Shown here: positions 25,279 through 63,829 of the stretch, in pieces | Position numbering within the stretch: the first letter of the stretch is position 1 | Layout of the letters: each line of letters begins with the position of its first letter | Assembly (NCBI GenBank): GCA_021801265.1 | Contig: JAJYYE010000001.1 | Span: 310,001 to 374,000, forward strand | DNA length: 64,000 nt | Direction: 5' to 3' | DNA from: Pseudomonadota bacterium | Lineage (GTDB): Bacteria > Pseudomonadota > Gammaproteobacteria > Halothiobacillales > Halothiobacillaceae | Notes under the pieces: generated by a model | Database searches by the model: none | Told to the model about the DNA's origin: nothing | The model's input: only the letters and a program-made list of their open reading frames with translations | Made by a program: the position numbers and the translations under genes

Positions 25279-25359
25279 CCTTAAGCGCCTCGTTTCCTTA
25301 TAAAATTCCGATCAACCCGAAAACATCCGTTCACCCCCTCCCCGCGAGCATGGGTATGT

Positions 25360-25491
25360 TGCAGGAGGGGTTTCATTCCCGACAGCACGGCCAAACGCCC
25401 GCGCCCACCCATCCGAAGCACCCCTGCGGCACGGCGTTCGGCCGCGTTCATTGCATTGGGCACCTCGCCGGGGTTGAAACCCCTCCTACAG
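25360..25491. repeat. Inverted pair of GTAG-type REP-like palindromes with conserved spacer (BIME-like)
   Basis: One palindrome lies at 25360-25383 (GCAGGAGGGGTTTCATTCCC) and a reverse copy at 25467-25491 (GGGGTTGAAACCCCTCCTAC). The spacer (GGCCAAACGCCCGCG..., CATCCGAAGCACCCC, GGCCGCGTTCATTGCATTGG) recurs almost base for base at 61019-61086, and more loosely at 44790-44893 and, inverted, at 49955-50045. It fills most of the 272-bp gap between mtgA and the UDP-sugar dehydrogenase gene. Confidence 0.75.
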
Positions 25492-36821: not shown

Positions 36822-36899
36822 GCGATCCGAAAAGTCGCCGCGGTATGTACCCCTTCGACAAAGTCCCCGTTCGGTTGGGGGGAAATCCCGCACTTGCGC

Positions 36900-37044
36900 T
36901 GTAGGAGGGGATTTATCCCCGACACGGTGCCAAACGCGCTGAATGCGGCCTAACGCCGTGCCGCATGGGGTTCAGTATCTTCGGATGGCTGGTGCCCCCG
37001 TCGGGGCTTGATCGCAAAGCTGGCGCAAGCCCGCCCCGCCTACA
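36900..37044. repeat. GTAG-type REP-like palindrome with degenerate inverted partner
   Basis: A clean forward copy lies at 36900-36923 (GTAGGAGGGGATTTATCCCC). About 80 bp on, GTCGGGGCTTGATCGC and GCCCGCCCCGCCTACAG (37000-37044) make a rough reverse copy. The spacer GCGGCCTAACGCCGTGCCGC belongs to the same spacer family as at 49.9 kb. It covers the end of the 281-bp gap before the minor pilin operon. Confidence 0.65.
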
Positions 37045-44749: not shown

Positions 44750-44917
44750 TACGGAGGGGATTTATCCCCGACAAGGGAGGGCGCAAACCCATCCGAAACG
44801 CCCCATCCGCCCGAGGCACCCCCCAGGCCACCGAAGCACCCCGAACCCCCCCATGGCACAGCGTTAGGCCGCGTTCATCACATGGGGCACCGCGCCGGGG
44901 ATGAATCCCCTCCTGCG
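44750..44917. repeat. Inverted pair of GTAG-type REP-like palindromes with conserved spacer
   Basis: Copies lie at 44750-44773 (ACGGAGGGGATTTATCCCCG) and, reversed, at 44894-44917 (CCGGGGATGAATCCCCTCCT). The spacer carries CATCCGAAACGCCCC and GGCCGCGTTCATCACATGGG, related to the spacer at 25.4 and 61.0 kb. It occupies the centre of the 323-bp gap between the GT-C-like gene and fimT; the fimT promoter should lie at its right side, but I cannot place it. Confidence 0.72.
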
Positions 44918-44954
44918 GCAATGGGGCGAGGGGGGAACGTTTCGGCCGCCCGAA

Positions 44955-46928
44955 TCAATCGGCGGGCGCAGCCAAATCCTGCTGCAATGCCGACCGCAAA
45001 TGCGCTTCCGAATCGCTGAAGAAACCCGCATCGCGCAACACCCGGCGGTTGATATCGGGCATCGACCAACCGGTAATATTCGCCAGCGGCGAGGGCACTT
45101 CATCGAGCAATTTAAGCGCGAGTCTTTGCTGATTCGCCGAGGCCAGCTCGGCGGCAAACAACAGGCGCGAACCGGGGTCGGTGCCCGGCAGCAACAGCGC
45201 GGTTTTCATATCGGCAAAGGCGTTATCCGGTGCGTTTTGCTTAAGCCAATACAACGCACGCCGGTGCAGCAGACTGCGCTGTTCGGTCGGATTGTTTGCC
45301 ACAGCGGGATTTTGTAACGCCGCATCAATCAGTTGCATCCCAAAGTTGGCACCAAACACGCTGCAATCGGTTTGCAATCGGCTTAAAAACGTATCGAATT
45401 GGTATCCGGTCACGTTTTGCGCCAAATCGCCGCGCATCGCCAGGTTACGCAAGGCCGATTGAAGACCCGCCGGTGCCGAATTCATATCGCAGGCCACAAA
45501 TGCGCGGTTTGCCAGCACGAGCAAATCATCGGGGTGTTCGGCAAAGGCGCGATCAAGCAGGCGCTCGGCCTCGGAATAGTTGCCGGTTTGTTCCCAGAAA
45601 TTGGCGAGATAACTTTGCGCACGGGCAGAGTCGGGGTGCTGGCTTGCCCAACTCAAGGCCTGCGCAAACGGCTTGCCCCACATATCGGCGCGCTTGAGTG
45701 ACAGCAACGCAAACACCGATAAAATGGCAACCGCCACCCACACCGGCCAACGGTGATGCACATCGGTTTTCTGCACCAGAAATAGTGCCAGGGGCAAAAA
45801 CATCAACCCGGCGGGCAAATAATTGCGGTGCTCGAACATCAGTTCCAGCGGCAACCAGGTCGATTCCAGCAACTGCCCGACAAAATAAAATGCAATCGCC
45901 AAACCTACCGCGCGCAGCCAGGGCGTTTTGCTCAGGCGGGAGAGGACCGCCAGCGCGATGAGCCCGAATATCCCCAGCGTGGCAAACAGCGTCGAAAGCG
46001 GTGTAAACACGCTCGTCGAAATACGAATATCATCGTTGAACAAGCCACCATCGTGCAGGCTCGGCAACCACAAATCGCCCAGATACCCCCACACAATGCG
46101 GGTTTCGGTCAGCAGGCGCTCCCACGGGGTGAAGTCGCGCCCATACGTTTGGCCGGAAAACAGCAGGGGCAACTGGTAAGCCAGATACGCCAGCAACACC
46201 GCGCTGGGCAGAACAATAAAAACCCGTCGCCACCAGATAAAACGCTGGCCGTGGCGGTCGAGCGCGCGGTTGTCCGCATCAAACACAAAGGCCTCGATCA
46301 CCCAGGCCAATAGCGGCAGCAACGCACCGTTTTCCTTGGACAGCACCGCCAACAGCGTACCCAACCCCAGCCCCGTGCTCATCCAGACATAACCGCTGAC
46401 GGTTCGACCTGCCGCCAGTTGCAAGCGCCCATGCACATACGCCCAAAGCCCCGCGAACACAAACAAGGCCGCCAGCATGGCCATGCGCTGGATGATATAC
46501 AACGTGGTACCCACCCAGAAGGGATGCAGCAGCCAACACCCCGCCGCCAACACCGCCACCCAGGCCGCGCGTTTGGGCGCCAAGCCAAAACCCTGCGCCA
46601 GCGCATGGCTCAAACCGGCCAGCAGCATGCCGTTGATTAAATGAATCAGCACATTGGTTTGCTTGAACACCTCCGGCGGCGCGGGCCATACGCGGGTATC
46701 AATCAAAAAACTCGCCAAGGAGATTGGCCGCCCGGTGGGGCCGGCAAAGCCCGAGGTAATCCAGGCCCATGCCTGCCAGGCGTGCTTAATGGGGCCGTAA
46801 TCACCCATCGGCGGCAGGTTGCCGTAATCATCAAATAAAAACGCGCCCGATAAGCCCGGTAGATACACCGCATAAGCCAGCGCCAGCAAAAACGCCCCAG
46901 CGACAAAAGTTTTCCAATCAATACGCAT
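44955..46928 (-). CDS. GT-C-like multi-spanning membrane protein with C-terminal TPR region, copy 1
   Basis: About 657 residues. Roughly 11-12 hydrophobic helices fill the first 430 residues, and a TPR-like helical tail follows (GNYSEAERLLDRAFAEHPDD LLVLANRAF across two blocks). After the first helix comes LFDDYGNLPP, an acidic pair in the first external loop as in GT-C glycosyltransferases; later MFEHRNYLPAGLMF recalls the TMTC/DUF1736-type group. It lies between the minor pilin operon and pilA with a paralogue, so pilin or surface glycosylation is likely but inferred. ATG 46928 follows AAGGGAA; a TTG six codons upstream is less likely. Confidence 0.72.
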   Translation of the reverse strand: MRIDWKTFVAGAFLLALAYAVYLPGLSGAFLFDDYGNLPPMGDYGPIKHAWQAWAWITSGFAGPTGRPISLASFLIDTRVWPAPPEVFKQTNVLIHLINGMLLAGLSHALAQGFGLAPKRAAWVAVLAAGCWLLHPFWVGTTLYIIQRMAMLAALFVFAGLWAYVHGRLQLAAGRTVSGYVWMSTGLGLGTLLAVLSKENGALLPLLAWVIEAFVFDADNRALDRHGQRFIWWRRVFIVLPSAVLLAYLAYQLPLLFSGQTYGRDFTPWERLLTETRIVWGYLGDLWLPSLHDGGLFNDDIRISTSVFTPLSTLFATLGIFGLIALAVLSRLSKTPWLRAVGLAIAFYFVGQLLESTWLPLELMFEHRNYLPAGLMFLPLALFLVQKTDVHHRWPVWVAVAILSVFALLSLKRADMWGKPFAQALSWASQHPDSARAQSYLANFWEQTGNYSEAERLLDRAFAEHPDDLLVLANRAFVACDMNSAPAGLQSALRNLAMRGDLAQNVTGYQFDTFLSRLQTDCSVFGANFGMQLIDAALQNPAVANNPTEQRSLLHRRALYWLKQNAPDNAFADMKTALLLPGTDPGSRLLFAAELASANQQRLALKLLDEVPSPLANITGWSMPDINRRVLRDAGFFSDSEAHLRSALQQDLAAPAD

Positions 46929-46971: not shown

Positions 46972-47104
46972 CACCCCCTCCCCTTCATGGGGGAGGGACT
47001 TTAATGCCCGAGCCACAAGGAAGCGGGGCAACGCCCTCCCCCTGAAAGAGGTGCGCTTTAACTCCCTCCCCCTTCATGGGGGAGGGTTGGGGTGGGGGAT
47101 GAGG
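46972..47104. repeat. CCCTCCCCC/GGGGGAGGG hairpin repeats between GT-C copy 1 and the DUF559 gene
   Basis: Two hairpin units (CCCTCCCC..ATGGGGGAGGG at 46976-46996 and CCCTCCCCCTTCATGGGGGA at about 47065-47084, then GGGTTGGGGTGGGGG). The right unit overlaps the last codons of the DUF559 gene and provides its SSPTPTLPHEGGGS tail. Confidence 0.7.
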
Positions 47105-47444
47105 TGGGCAATCGCTCAAGCAGCGCCAACCGCACCACCTCCAGCACCCCATCCAACTGCTGCAACACCTCGTTATTCCAAAACCGCAACACCTTAAACC
47201 CTTCCGCCACCAAAAACGCATCTCGCACCCTATCGCTGGCGCTATCCGCATGCTGCCCGCCATCAACCTCAATCACCAGCCTATGAGAAAAACACACAAA
47301 ATCCACGATATAGCGGCCCATAGGCGCTTGACGGCGAAACTTTACGCCCATTTGCTCAGCGCGAAGGTATCGCCAAATCACCCGCTCGGCATCCGTCATA
47401 TTAGCGCGCAACGCGCGGGCGTTTTGGATGAGTGCGTGTGTCAT
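47058..47444 (-). CDS. DUF559 (Vsr-like fold) endonuclease-domain protein
   Basis: A 128-residue protein of the DUF559 family, a PD-(D/E)XK-type fold related to very-short-patch repair nucleases: MTDAERVIWRYLRAEQMGVK FRRQAPMGRYIVDFVCFSHR LVIEVDGGQHADSA read in succession, with the acidic D and E-V-D residues conserved. GAGG lies 7 bp before the ATG. Its last 14 residues, SSPTPTLPHEGGGS, are encoded by a hairpin repeat, so the native C-terminus was replaced. It sits between two GT-C-like paralogues with no partner nuclease or methylase. Function is unknown. Confidence 0.85.
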   Translation of the reverse strand: MTHALIQNARALRANMTDAERVIWRYLRAEQMGVKFRRQAPMGRYIVDFVCFSHRLVIEVDGGQHADSASDRVRDAFLVAEGFKVLRFWNNEVLQQLDGVLEVVRLALLERLPTSSPTPTLPHEGGGS

Positions 47445-47467: not shown

Positions 47468-47722
47468 TGCCGCACCCCCACCCCAGCCCTCCCCCATGGA
47501 GGGGGAGGGAGTATTTTGGCCCAGCCCTCCCCCATCAAGGGGGAGAGAGTATTTTGGCCCAGCCCTCCCCCATCAAGGGGGAGGGAGTTAAAGCCCCCTC
47601 CTTGGGCACATTAAAGCCTCTCCCCTCGTTAGGTGGGGACACACTAAGCCCCTCCCCTCTGGGGGCGGAGGCGCATTAAAGCCCCTCCCCCCTTGTGGGG
47701 GAGGGGTTGGGGTGGGGGGTCT
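47468..47722. repeat. Array of CCCTCCCCC hairpin repeats with a tandem duplication
   Basis: About six hairpin units between the DUF559 and second GT-C-like genes. Two successive units at about 47505-47590 repeat AGTATTTTGGCCCAGCCCTC with CCCCCATCAAGGGGGAG in tandem, a period near 42 bp. The left end encodes the ETPHPNPSPTRGEGL tail of the GT-C-like gene. Confidence 0.75.
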
Positions 47723-49841
47723 CTTTTTTCACTAACGCCGCTTGTGCCTCGGCAATCACCGCGTCATAAACCCCCTTGCCATTTAATTCCCGCATGCGCT
47801 CGATGCCCACCCGCGCATCGCTCAATTTCCCGGCGGCGGTTTGCAGCGTCACCAGATTTTTCCAATAATCGAATTTTTTCGGATCCAGCGCGACCGCTTG
47901 CTGCATCAAGGTATAGGCCAGCGGGAAATCGTGGGAAATATTCGCCGAATAATTCGCCAGCAGCGTCAAAATGCCGGGGTCTTTGGGGTGGCGTGTCACG
48001 GCGAATTGCAGGGTCTGGCCGAGTTCGGTTATGTCTTGCGCCGTGTATTTACATACCCCATTGGTGCCGCAATTAATCAGGCTATACAGCGCGCTCACAT
48101 CCTCGGCGCTCATCGGTTGGCGGGCGATTTTGGCGCGCAGGTGGTTCCACCAGGCGGTTTGTACGGGCAGGTTGTTTTTCGCGGCCATAAAAATCAGCGC
48201 TTGATCGGCCTGAATGCTCGCACCGGGAATTTTTGCCGTATTTTCCATTTGCGAAAAACCCATCTGAAACATCGGGCTGTCTGTTCCGGGTGCCATAATC
48301 ATCATCACCCGCGCCAGTTCATAACTCGCGCGCGGAGAATCCGGGTGGGTGGTGGATTCAAAATATGCCAGCCGATAGGGATTCCCCCAAATGTGCGCAC
48401 GCAGGGCAGTAAACCCCGCATACAAAGCGATTAAAGCCACCACGCCGCTCACCGTGAGGGTGCGCATCAGGGCACGGCGCTCGGCATCCTTGGGCGCCCA
48501 GGCAAAAAGGAGCCCGAACAGCGCGATAAACACCCCCCAACTGGGCAGATAATTGCGATGCTCATACACCAGTTCCAGCGGGATATAGGTCGAAACCAGC
48601 GCGTGGCCGGCAAAAAACCACAGCACGCCCAGTGCAAACAGGGGCGCGCGCTGGCGCAGTTTTAGCGCGGCCCCCATCAGCGCCACAATCACCGCCCAGC
48701 TTGCCGCCGTCGTCCACGGGGCAAACCAGCCGGTGGAAAGGGCAATATCATCGTGATACAGGCTTAACGCATTGGGCGTGGGGGCGATAATCCAGTGCAC
48801 ATAATCCAATAGCACGCGGCCTTCCGTCCACAGCCGCTGCGCCAAATCAAATGGCCGTGACGCATACGCCGTACCATTCAAAACACCCGGCAAGGTATAG
48901 GCCAGCCCCGCCATGCCCGGCAGCACCAGCACAAGGGCGAACACCAAAATAAACTTAGGCTCAAAGCCCGCCGCCACCCGCCCGCGCAAAACGAGCCACT
49001 CCAGCAAAAACGCGTACACCGGCAACATCACCCCGGATTCCTTGGCGAACACCGCAAGCACCGTACCGCCGAGCAAGCCCGCCAAAATGCGCCACCAGCC
49101 ACCGGTTTGCCCATGGATCAAGCGCATCCGCCCCTGCCAGTACAGCCACAACCCCGCCAGCATAAACAGCGAGGCCAGTGATTCCATGCGCTGAATCACA
49201 TACAGCACCGCCGTGAGCTGCATGGGCGAAAACAACCACGCCGCCGTAATGAGCAAGGCCAGCGTGTTGGGGGCGATTAGCCAGCTTTGGGCCCCTGCCC
49301 CCCCACCCCAGCCCTCCCCCATGAAGGGGGAGGGAGTTAACGCCCCGCTTACTTGCTGCACCGTGGCACCAAAAGGCACGCTCTTAGCCCCTCCCCCCTT
49401 GTGGGGGGCGAAGCGGGTCGCGTTGCCCCGCGACCCCGGACGGGGTTGGGGTGGGGGTGTAGGCAAGCCGCCCGCCCACACCCACCCCAGCACCGCGCGC
49501 GTCAGCAGGTAAATCAGCAGCCCATTGGCCGCATGAATCAACACATTCACGAATTTGAGCGGCCAGGGTGCCAGCCCGGTAAACCCATCCTGAACGGCGA
49601 AGGTGAACATCGAAAGGGGGCGATCGGTCGGTCCCGAACCGCTCGACCACACCGCCGCCCAAAAATGCGCCCGCACCGCGCCCGGCGCAAACGCCGCGTT
49701 ATCCACCAAATTGCCGAAATCATCAAAGGCAAAGCCCCCCGCCAGCCCCGGCCAATACACCAGCACCGTGAACAACAGCAAAGCCACGACCAGCAAACGG
49801 TCACGCAGGGAGAGGGAATCAAAAGGGCGCGCACTGGGCAT
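47676..49841 (-). CDS. GT-C-like multi-spanning membrane protein with C-terminal TPR region, copy 2, carrying an in-frame repeat insertion
   Basis: A paralogue of the 45-47 kb protein, about 721 residues. Shared features are AFDDFGNLVD after the first helix, the VNVLIHAANGLL segment, VLYVIQRMESLASLFMLAG, VYEHRNYLPSWGVF and a helical tail (LDPKKFDYWKNLVTLQ). Between two helices, residues about 127-182 (PTPPPQPRPGSRGNATRFAP ... LTPSPFMGEGWGGGAGAQ) have no counterpart in copy 1 and are encoded by the hairpin repeat at 49297-49462. The last 15 residues also come from a repeat. ATG 49841 follows AAGGA. The likely role is protein or pilin glycosylation (inference). Confidence 0.72.
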   Translation of the reverse strand: MPSARPFDSLSLRDRLLVVALLLFTVLVYWPGLAGGFAFDDFGNLVDNAAFAPGAVRAHFWAAVWSSGSGPTDRPLSMFTFAVQDGFTGLAPWPLKFVNVLIHAANGLLIYLLTRAVLGWVWAGGLPTPPPQPRPGSRGNATRFAPHKGGGAKSVPFGATVQQVSGALTPSPFMGEGWGGGAGAQSWLIAPNTLALLITAAWLFSPMQLTAVLYVIQRMESLASLFMLAGLWLYWQGRMRLIHGQTGGWWRILAGLLGGTVLAVFAKESGVMLPVYAFLLEWLVLRGRVAAGFEPKFILVFALVLVLPGMAGLAYTLPGVLNGTAYASRPFDLAQRLWTEGRVLLDYVHWIIAPTPNALSLYHDDIALSTGWFAPWTTAASWAVIVALMGAALKLRQRAPLFALGVLWFFAGHALVSTYIPLELVYEHRNYLPSWGVFIALFGLLFAWAPKDAERRALMRTLTVSGVVALIALYAGFTALRAHIWGNPYRLAYFESTTHPDSPRASYELARVMMIMAPGTDSPMFQMGFSQMENTAKIPGASIQADQALIFMAAKNNLPVQTAWWNHLRAKIARQPMSAEDVSALYSLINCGTNGVCKYTAQDITELGQTLQFAVTRHPKDPGILTLLANYSANISHDFPLAYTLMQQAVALDPKKFDYWKNLVTLQTAAGKLSDARVGIERMRELNGKGVYDAVIAEAQAALVKKETPHPNPSPTRGEGL
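49297..49462. repeat. Hairpin repeat element inserted inside the GT-C-like gene
   Basis: Contains both units of the family: CCAGCCCTCCCCCATGAAGG with GGGAGGGAGTTAA (49310-49340), and CCCCTCCCCCCTTGTGGGGG then GCGAAGCGGGTCGCGTTGCC, CCGCGACCCCGGACGGGGTT, GGGGTGGGGG (49388-49457). The same long unit is intergenic at 50.94-51.01 and 52.19-52.25 kb. The host reading frame passes through it without a stop. Confidence 0.85.
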
Positions 49842-49935
49842 AAGCAATCCTTGGCCAAAAATAAGCGATTCATAAAAGCAAGCATCGTACCTTACCCCGC
49901 GGCAGGCGATGACCCCCGCCGACAAAATGTACGCT

Positions 49936-50045
49936 GCAGAAGGGGTTTCAACCCCGACGCGGTGCCCAATGCAATGAACGCGGCCTAACGCGGTGCCGCA
50001 GGGGTGCGGGGTGCTGCGGATGGATGGGTGGGTGTGGGGGTTTGG
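49936..50045. repeat. GTAG-type REP-like palindrome with conserved spacer
   Basis: CAGAAGGGGTTTCAACCCCG then ACGCGGTGCCCAATGCAATG, followed by the inverted form of the spacer known from 25.4 and 61.0 kb (GAACGCGGCCTAACGCGGTG, CGGATGGATGGGTGGG, GTTTGGCCGTGC). The expected second palindrome is missing: the spacer ends at GGGGGGCGATAACAGC. It fills much of the 334-bp gap between the GT-C-like gene and the pilA terminator. Confidence 0.62.
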
Positions 50046-50175: not shown

Positions 50176-50631
50176 TTAACGGCAAGAAGAAGGCAGGTAT
50201 TTGGCCAACATGGAACCGGCACCCTTACATGTGAATTTAACACTGCCAGTAGCTGTAACCGCACTAAGGACAACTTCAGCGCCCGTAGGAATTGCTGCGT
50301 TGGCTTTTGGCCCGCCAAATTTCACAATGATTTGACCAGGAGTGCTGCCAACGTTTACATCAGTAACATAATTTCCATTGATGGACTGGGAGCTAGCTAA
50401 GCCAGCTGAAACATTGCTTGGGGGGAATTTCCCTAGGTTGTTATAGAACTCAACCAATGCTGTTTTGGAACCATCAGCCAAGCTCATCCCTTCAGAGACT
50501 TGCGCACGGATGGTGTAATCCTGATACGCAGGAATCGCGATGGCGGCCAGAATACCGATAATCGCGATCACGATCATCAATTCAATCAGGGTGAAACCCT
50601 TTTGCACGTTCTTTTGCATTTGCTTCAACAT
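50176..50631 (-). CDS. pilA: Main type IV pilin PilA
   Basis: A 151-residue type IVa prepilin, the major subunit of the pilus fibre. Leader [12 protein letters not shown] is cut before [40 protein letters not shown] follows. The C-terminal Cys pair ([18 protein letters not shown]) closes the D-loop. AAGGAG precedes the ATG, a sigma-54 promoter lies 55 bp upstream and a strong terminator follows, so it is a single-gene, highly expressed unit. Position after the two GT-C-like genes suggests they may modify it. A run of [12 protein letters not shown] could serve as Ser glycosylation region (speculative). Confidence 0.93.
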
Positions 50632-50719: not shown

Positions 50720-51012
50720 CATTAAAAAGTCCCGCCCCCTTGTGGGGGCGAAGCGGGTCGCGCTGCCCCGCGACCCCGGGCTGGGTTGGGGTGGGGGCAT
50801 CGTTAAATGATGGTGCTAAACCCGCACCCCCTCCCCAGCCCTCCCCCATGAAGGGGGAGGGAGTTCATGCGTTTAAGCCTTCCCGCATTGAGAGGAGGGC
50901 GTTAAAACTCCAATCCGCTCCACAAGGGGTTGGGCATTAAAGCCCCTCCCCCCTTGTGGGGGGCGAAGCGGGTCGCGCTGCCCCGCGACCCCGGACGGGG
51001 TTGGGGTGGGGG
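50720..51012. repeat. Cluster of CCCTCCCCC hairpin repeats upstream of pilA
   Basis: Two long units (CCCCCTTGTGGGGGCGAAGC ... GACCCCGGGCTGGGTTGGGG at 50728-50795; and 50944-51012) and one short unit (CAGCCCTCCCCCATGAAGGG at 50833-50852). They fill the rest of the 414-bp gap between the SDR and pilA genes beyond the pilA promoter. Confidence 0.8.
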
Positions 51013-52029: not shown

Positions 52030-52382
52030 CCGCACCCCCTCCCCAACCCTCCCCCATCAAGGGGGAGGGAGTTTGTGGGTTTAAACCCTCCCCCATTGAG
52101 GGGGAGGGAGTTGAAACCCCATTTCCTTGTGGGGAGGGAGTTTACGCCCCACTTCCTTGTGAGGTGGCGGCCTCTCTCTTAGCCCCTCCCCCCTCGTGGG
52201 GGGCGAAGCGGGTCGCGTTGCCCCGCGACCCCGGACGGGGTTGGGGTGGGGGGCGTCGTTAAATGAGGGTGCTAACCCCGCACCCCCTCCCCAGCCCTCC
52301 CCCATCAAGGGGGAGGGTGTTTGTGCAGCACTCCCTCACACATCAAGGGGGAGGGTGTTTGTGCAGCACCCCACCCCAGCCA
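52030..52382. repeat. Array of CCCTCCCCC hairpin repeats between the SDR and prenyl synthase genes
   Basis: At least four short hairpins (for example CAACCCTCCCCCATCAAGGG at 52044, and copies at 52086, 52292 and 52340), and one long unit (52187-52252) with GCGAAGCGGGTCGCGTTGCC and GACCCCGGACGGGGTTGGGG. Together they take up most of the 494-bp gap; I see no gene in it. Confidence 0.82.
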
Positions 52383-53559: not shown

Positions 53560-53722
53560 TATCCCCCACCCCAGCCCTCCCCCACAAGGGGGGAGGGAGT
53601 AAACCCCAAAATTCATTGGGGAGGGAGTTAATGCCAAAGCCCTCCTCCTCGTGGGCAGGAAGTGGGCACATACTTAGCCCCGCCCCCTTGTGGGGAGGGG
53701 TTGGGGAGGGGGATGGGCGGGC
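53560..53722. repeat. CCCTCCCCC hairpin repeats between ispB and ligA
   Basis: Short hairpins (CAGCCCTCCCCCACAAGGGG at 53571 and CCCCGCCCCCTTGTGGGGAG at 53679, then GGGTTGGGGAGGGGG). They occupy most of the 279-bp gap before ispB and fall about 5 bp short of the ligA stop. Confidence 0.72.
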
Positions 53723-60944: not shown

Positions 60945-61112
60945 TGTAGGCGGGGATTCGACCCTAACGCGGACTAACGTCAGCTGTGCGTTAAGCTGAC
61001 GAAGCCCGACAACTCGGCCAAACGCCCGCACCCATCCGAAGCACCCGCGGCACGGCGTTTGGCCGCGTTCATCGCATTGGGCACCGTGTCGGGGTTGAAA
61101 CCCCTCCTACAG
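60945..61112. repeat. Inverted pair of GTAG-type REP-like palindromes with conserved spacer (BIME-like)
   Basis: Copies lie at 60945-60968 (TGTAGGCGGGGATTCGACCC) and, reversed, at 61087-61112 (GTGTCGGGGTTGAAACCCCT then CCTAC). The spacer at 61019-61086 repeats that of the 25.4-kb pair almost exactly. A small inverted repeat CGTCAGC/GCTGACG lies at about 60978-61001 inside it. It fills the front of the 481-bp gap before the FHA gene; the rest shows no gene I can support. Confidence 0.75.
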
Positions 61113-63666: not shown

Positions 63667-63732
63667 TCAACAGCGCCCTCCCGGCGTTCGAAGCGGGCCG
63701 GGGTGGGGAACTGGCACCTTGACCTTACCCCC

Positions 63733-63755
63733 GTAGGAGGGGGTTTATCCCCGAC
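63733..63755. repeat. GTAG-type REP-like palindrome, single copy
   Basis: GTAGGAGGGGGTTTATCCCC then GACAGCACGGCCAAACC, a well-preserved copy. It lies in the 163-bp gap between the convergent kinase and TPR genes and may end transcription from both sides. Confidence 0.7.
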
Positions 63756-63829
63756 AGCACGGCCAAACCAAGAAGCGCGATTGAGCGAGATTATGCGCAG
63801 GCTCCAAGACTGTTTCACATCCTGCCCCG

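Follow-up and report, generated by a model that had tools for sequence, protein, structure and literature searches.

The Rickettsia palindromic elements (RPE) are repeats found both between and inside genes, where they are read in frame, occupy the same site in orthologues and fall in exposed or loop regions of the protein, and orthologous sites may hold different repeat types (Ogata et al. 2000, as far as it is relayed in PMC3767692 and PMC2229807). RU-1, RU-2, RU-3 and Correia are small non-autonomous repeats whose open reading frames are fused in frame to genes, and the variants with an open frame are those found in genes (Delihas 2007, PMC2759123, PMC2229807). TM_ECO/PIT, a repeat with the pattern 5'-CCCTCNCCCN3-6GGGNGAGGGN3GGGNGAGGG, is always intergenic in E. 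coli MG1655 (K-12); it is tied to variable loci and instability, and no association with mobile elements was found (PMC4666352). Holder et al. (2015, PMC4666352) examined the E. coli motif by CD or NMR for triplex formation in vitro, and their work did not support triplexes that are stable in vivo.

We analyzed a stretch of 64,000 nucleotides (the window) from a Halothiobacillus genome, referred to as G000, whose nearest named relatives are Halothiobacillus, together with related genomes. The reading that stands after these comparisons is that of a translated, in-frame repeat whose frame would be held by selection on the gene, a triplex-motif repeat with RPE-like behavior. The features of the locus are collected in Table 1.

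Table 1. Genes and repeats of the window (strand "." where no direction is assigned).
Feature	Position	Strand	Basis
TGTAGGAGGGGTTTCAACCCCGACA-core repeat (separate family)	25,358-25,491; 36,897-36,969; 44,850-44,918; 49,932-50,004; 61,044-61,112; 63,730-63,771		
GT-C-like paralogue without insert	44,958-46,928	-	alignment
DUF559 (PF04480) endonuclease-like gene, repeats on both sides	47,058-47,444	-	Pfam E 9.9e-40
Perfect triplex motif at 3' end of DUF559 gene	47,064-47,098	+	triad scan
Three repeat units upstream of DUF559 gene	47,475-47,591	.	repeat matches, triad scan
Repeat at 3' end of GT-C-like gene, giving last codons PHPNPSPTRGEGL and stop	47,676-47,720	+	repeat and triad scan
GT-C-like/TPR membrane protein, 721 aa, host of insert	47,679-49,841	-	orthologues, alignment, VIA-align, TPR matches, synteny
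In-frame insert as delimited by orthologues, 64 codons, residues 123-186	about 49,284-49,475	-	alignment with G007, G020, G022, paralogues
Repeat-derived part of insert, most of its length	49,297-49,462	-	repeat matches
Perfect 9-triad intrastrand triplex motif, CCCTCCCCC-TTCAT-GGGGGAGGG-CTG-GGGTGGGGG	49,300-49,334	- (coding)	triad scan, 0 in shuffles
Long form of repeat inside GT-C-like gene, 77 nt	49,381-49,457	+	identity to intergenic copies
Type IV pilin gene, upstream of GT-C-like gene	50,179-50,631	-	TIGR02532 match; synteny
Intergenic repeat array	50,721-51,012	.	repeat matches
Intergenic repeat array with 52,176-52,252, closest copy of intragenic long form	52,036-52,370	.	repeat matches
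Intergenic repeat array, last in cluster	53,563-53,714	.	repeat matches and triad scan

The host of the insert is a 721-residue protein with TPR repeats at its C-terminus (domain matches). In its AlphaFold model (mean pLDDT 76.8), residues 9-487 matched best Pmt4 (Z 14.6, 326 aligned, rmsd 5.0) and STT3A (Z 14.4) with VIA-align. Foldseek against the PDB returned only TPR chains in its top rows, and the GT-C match emerged only with VIA-align. Because Z scores of 13-14 are little above noise for helical proteins and Foldseek gave TPR chains, there is moderate support for a GT-C membrane fold of the PMT/STT3 kind in the modeled residues 9-487. The acidic motif of the first extracytoplasmic loop is present, D40 and D41 being invariant in 13 sequences. 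The gene order pilin, GT-C, second GT-C is kept across the genus, including the repeat-free G007, and in G020 of the same family; the protein is probably a pilin-linked glycosyltransferase with a putative role in pilin glycosylation. In the model, helices 92-124 and 191-204 enclose the insert, which from GT-C topology would be in the first cytoplasmic loop. This loop is unstructured in the model, with pLDDT below 50 at residues 137-185.

A sequence-only reading of the locus had placed a repeat segment in frame inside this gene, absent from the neighboring paralogue, intergenic elsewhere, and with the frame intact through both hairpins. The placement was correct, and the alignment bore out that the paralogue lacks the segment. 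The long form inside the gene is 98.7% identical to an intergenic copy 2.8 kb away and 93.5% identical to another at 50,936-51,012. The coding frame runs through the insert without a stop, and the two other forward frames contain 2 and 1. The hairpins of the segment gave an RNA minimum free energy of -103.2 kcal/mol (z = -4.1 against 200 shuffles). A tblastn search with the insert peptide against plasmid records gave no match.

Repeat copies in the genomes were counted by pattern search, and the stretches around the copies were then read. The repeat is strongly clustered, with 15 of the 16 matches in the window's genome falling in about 7 kb. A scan of the window for triads found nine triplex-motif sites, all at 47.06-53.71 kb, of which eight have no mismatch; five shuffles of the window gave 0. 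In the window variant, CCCTCCCCC-n5-GGGGGAGGG-n3-GGG(T/A)GGGGG, the nine triads are all preserved; opposite A the third strand has either T or A, and the motif permits both there. Copies in two other genes, encoding a Mod-type DNA methyltransferase and the phosphomannomutase of G009, fit the published TM_ECO/PIT pattern literally. By pattern fit, the repeat is a member of the TM_ECO/PIT class of intrastrand-triplex motifs, and a triplex is predicted for the window variant. No Rfam family matched in the window. Most copies are intergenic and several are inside genes, as opposed to MG1655, where all are reported to be intergenic. We also observed a separate repeat family with the core TGTAGGAGGGGTTTCAACCCCGACA, which resembles GTAG-tagged REPs, in this genome without a RAYT gene.

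Alignment with insert-free orthologues showed repeat peptide at the common site in five species and a short loop in three other genomes. The insert is 64 residues long in the window and 74, 90, 89 and 223 residues in G001, G002, G006 and G008, and those four inserts are built of the common peptides TPPPQPSPMKGEG, PPPLWGRGWGGG and PSPxxGEGWGGG. It is absent from G007 of the same genus, where the loop has 8 residues, from G020 and G022 of the same family, and from the paralogues. No distant orthologue carried a segment unlike the repeat at this site. The genomes compared are mostly draft or metagenome assemblies, in which repeats may be misassembled, though five separate assemblies agree.

The repeat is poor in stop codons, and the open frame might reflect this property only, in a pseudogene or a gene that is not expressed. 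A frame taken at random through the intergenic arrays of this repeat was open over 165 nt in 21% of cases, over 240 nt in 12% and over 270 nt in 10%. The coding frame of the insert is stop-free in all five species, and each other forward frame contains 1-14 stops; these figures illustrate the point and were not multiplied, because the five GT-C inserts share ancestry and are not independent trials. On both flanks of the insert dN/dS was about 0.1-0.2 in close pairs (Nei-Gojobori), with dN/dS of 0.10/0.78 and 0.12/1.03 for the two flanks between the window and G006, suggesting that the genes are functional. This constraint, the long open frames in five assemblies and the conserved synteny with pilin argue against a pseudogene, and we regard that reading as extremely improbable.

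The content of the insert tracks each genome's own repeat pool, not the orthologue. The loop CTCAA occurs in G008 in 37 of 42 copies outside the GT-C gene and in 3 of 4 inside it, and was not seen in seven other genomes sampled. The 98.7% identity of the window's long form to its intergenic copy stands against an identity of 65-79% among the orthologous proteins of the insert-bearing species. The long form inside the G002 gene has a tail one T short (GGGTGGGGTGGGGG) compared with GGTTGGGGTGGGGG in the other G002 copies found, and the reading frame downstream of it is correct. The published instability of the motif fits such a turnover of inserts.

Taken together, these data make it likely that a repeat of the triplex class entered the GT-C loop in an ancestor and stayed there as a translated, unstructured linker. 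A G/C-rich interspersed repeat would have inserted into the first cytoplasmic loop in the ancestor of the five Halothiobacillus species and been kept as a Pro/Gly-rich segment. Copies would since have been gained, lost and exchanged with the intergenic copies of the genome, perhaps by recombination or by replication slippage at the hairpins, with frame-breaking variants removed by selection and the peptide presumably tolerated rather than selected for. With lower confidence, the spread of the repeat may have been aided by the DUF559 nuclease, whose gene the repeats flank. The empty-site junctions (G007 for GT-C, G005 for Mod) are too diverged for a target-site duplication to be read.

Repeat peptide was found in other genes as well, those in a Mod methyltransferase and a phosphomannomutase being independent in-frame cases. 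The Mod-type DNA methyltransferase of G002 (L120:725-2761, +) carries a 147-residue in-frame repeat array, and its orthologue in G005, a genome with no strict repeat, is a clean empty site in which the counterparts of residues 455 and 603 are directly adjacent. The array in G002 consists of the literal E. coli-type motif CCCTCTCCC...GGGAGAGGG, a variant unlike that in the GT-C gene of the same genome. In the phosphomannomutase, G003 and G009 carry differing inserts at a single site that has no insert in G005. At this site the G003 protein exceeds the solved phosphoglucomutase 5kl0 in length, and the predicted G009 protein would yield peptides such as ADSTPSPLVGEGWGEGENTPKPHGK. In G003, a repeat insert is also probable at the N-terminus of an ABC ATPase. 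For a TamB-like protein of G008 (L150:1-2373, -), about 110 residues of repeat peptide are only probable, a weaker case than the Mod and phosphomannomutase inserts; its downstream flank has 64 residues at the contig end, and Pfam found no domain.

C-terminal repeat tails occur in MurU-like, LigA, GDSL lipase, APH-like and second GT-C proteins. In the window's own genome, the DUF559 protein ends in the repeat-encoded TPTLPHEGGGS and a MurU-like protein has a repeat-encoded C-terminus. The sequence-only reading had mentioned neither the repeat-encoded ends of the GT-C-like and DUF559 proteins nor the clustering of the repeat. The MurU-like nucleotidyltransferases of G000 and G003 (L126:1624-2415 and L111:1840-2688) both have repeat peptide ends, TTPTPALPHEGGGS in G000, so that repeat-derived stop codons are common to the two species. 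G003, Halothiobacillus sp. KUB_Bin10, has an NAD-dependent DNA ligase (L114:1710-3812, -) with the repeat-encoded tail TPTPTPPPQGGRG. Long antisense open frames over known genes (e.g., L153, L164 and L142) were set aside as not coding.

The peptide might have been domesticated, a Pro-rich cytoplasmic loop being useful for docking a partner or tuning the enzyme and kept for that use. Polyproline segments often bind partners, and the insert has been kept in all five species of one lineage, whose orthologous proteins are 65-79% identical. However, its length varies from 64 to 223 residues, its content is replaced by the local repeat type, the loop is disordered in the model, G007 lives without the insert, and similar peptides occur in unrelated proteins. 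We consider domestication unlikely. Because the loop is unstructured in the AlphaFold model, tolerance fits better than function, and neutrality of the peptide is most likely.

The phase in which the repeat is read differs between inserts and tails. Among gene-internal palindromes, 17 of 21 are read in phase 0 as PSPxxGEG, and the tails of the TLPHEGGGS type (DUF559, MurU-like, GDSL lipase) are read in another phase. Inspection of the codons suggests a reason for this bias, in that a phase 1 reading would meet a stop at GGGAGTTAA after the stem, and a phase 2 reading would meet one in the common loops ATGAA and ATAAA. Insertions in phases 1 and 2 end the protein, which matches the look of the C-terminal tails. 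Spacings between neighboring units were divisible by three in all 5 cases of the Mod array (45, 45, 66, 93 and 138) and in 3 of 4 of the GT-C array of G008, as compared with 11 of 29 in intergenic DNA.

Phase variation is classical for pilin glycosylation and type III mod genes, and the locus might act as a contingency locus, in which a change in unit number shifts the frame and switches the glycosyltransferase, and likewise the Mod methyltransferase, on and off. The reported instability of the motif (PMC4666352) would suit such a switch. Nonetheless, every state observed was ON, switching is not typical of phosphomannomutase or ABC ATPase genes, and because the Mod spacings are all multiples of three, gain or loss of a unit would not switch Mod. 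We hold this explanation to be very improbable, and return to an insert that is tolerated and turned over.

The repeats on both sides of the DUF559 gene may bear on how the repeat spreads. The DUF559 protein matched the endonuclease-like protein of PDB 3hrl (E 4.6e-28). All nine DUF559 genes found in the genus have C-first palindromes within 250 bp on both sides. These palindromes fall into two matched types: CCCTCCCCC at the GT-C locus of five species, and CCCCCCTTT...AAAGGGGGG in G009, G003 and G006. The CCCCCCTTT...AAAGGGGGG palindrome, which has a GGGGGGATTTA tail, flanks a second DUF559 subfamily (L208, L209, L210 and L211); translation of the frame upstream gives the repeat peptide SPFEKGGLRGI in L209 and L211. 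Among 29 further loci, sampled evenly across the class, 26 had a palindrome within 250 bp of DUF559, and 19 had one on both sides. With both sets pooled, 96 palindromes were counted in 18.8 kb near DUF559 (5.1/kb), where the near zone includes the gene's own ends, and 9 in 77.5 kb farther out in the same loci (0.12/kb); control loci had 0 in 41.8 kb. The DUF559 loci (L203-L240) were the best-scoring matches, and runs of N were left out of the counts. Only 2 palindromes in the DUF559 loci of both sets had the opposite, G-first orientation, and 69 of 99 carried a G-rich tail. These results demonstrate a strong association between DUF559 and the palindrome.

As to its direction, DUF559 may mobilize the repeats, travel with them as cargo, or favor sites of this kind. 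Repeats are present in G004, which gave no DUF559 match, and the motif-bearing E. coli gave none in the DUF559 control search, suggesting that repeats can exist without DUF559. A search of the literature for DUF559 together with palindromic repeats found nothing relevant, which is not proof of absence. RAYT was considered as a mobilizer and rejected, there being no Y1_Tnp (PF01797) gene in the window's genome; this family is absent from most repeat-bearing congeners and present in G006 and G007 only. We tentatively propose, as a possibility somewhat short of even, that DUF559 and the TM/PIT palindromes make up a mobile system of two parts: the nuclease would recognize its cognate hairpin or triplex and spread copies, much as RAYTs spread REPs, and the arrays inside genes would be a by-product. 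If true, a widespread repeat that has no known mobilizer would gain its partner. DUF559 as a mobilizing partner of the repeat may thus be a novel lead: a repeat that occurs in more than 260 known proteobacterial genomes is tied to one nuclease family, and its spread is now a testable question.

In REP/RAYT systems, short hairpin repeats flank a single small nuclease-type gene. The DUF559 loci share this arrangement of hairpin repeats around one small nuclease-type gene, but DUF559 is another nuclease family, and the motif starts without a GTAG or CGTC tag. With TM_ECO/PIT the window repeat has in common the order stem, loop, stem, 3-nt loop and third strand, the inverted pairs and the link to instability. 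It differs from the literal pattern by one base in its third strand, GGG(T/A)GGGGG, with the triads kept, and, unlike the motif in MG1655, Halothiobacillus copies are also translated in frame. RU and Correia elements are likewise small non-autonomous repeats in frame in genes; their sequences and hosts are different, and an orthologue series with changing arrays is found only in the Halothiobacillus case.

Conversion of repeats to protein-coding DNA has so far been seen mainly in Rickettsia and Wolbachia, with scattered enterobacterial cases; Halothiobacillus adds a further lineage, and the repeat is not the same. Because there are empty sites and several host genes, and because insert content stays in step with the genome's repeats, one can follow directly how new peptide segments arise and turn over. 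The sequence-only reading had likened the segment to RPE. The likeness holds for its behavior, as seen in the orthologue pattern, and fails for the repeat itself, which is a proteobacterial triplex motif (PMC4666352). As far as RPE are described in the sources cited above, both are palindromes found between genes and in frame inside them, and both share a site among orthologues, with outgroups here lacking the insert. The Halothiobacillus repeat belongs to a different lineage, is a proteobacterial triplex motif of short units, and has a content that follows its own genome's pool. Given its fit to the triplex motif, we do not file it as an RPE.
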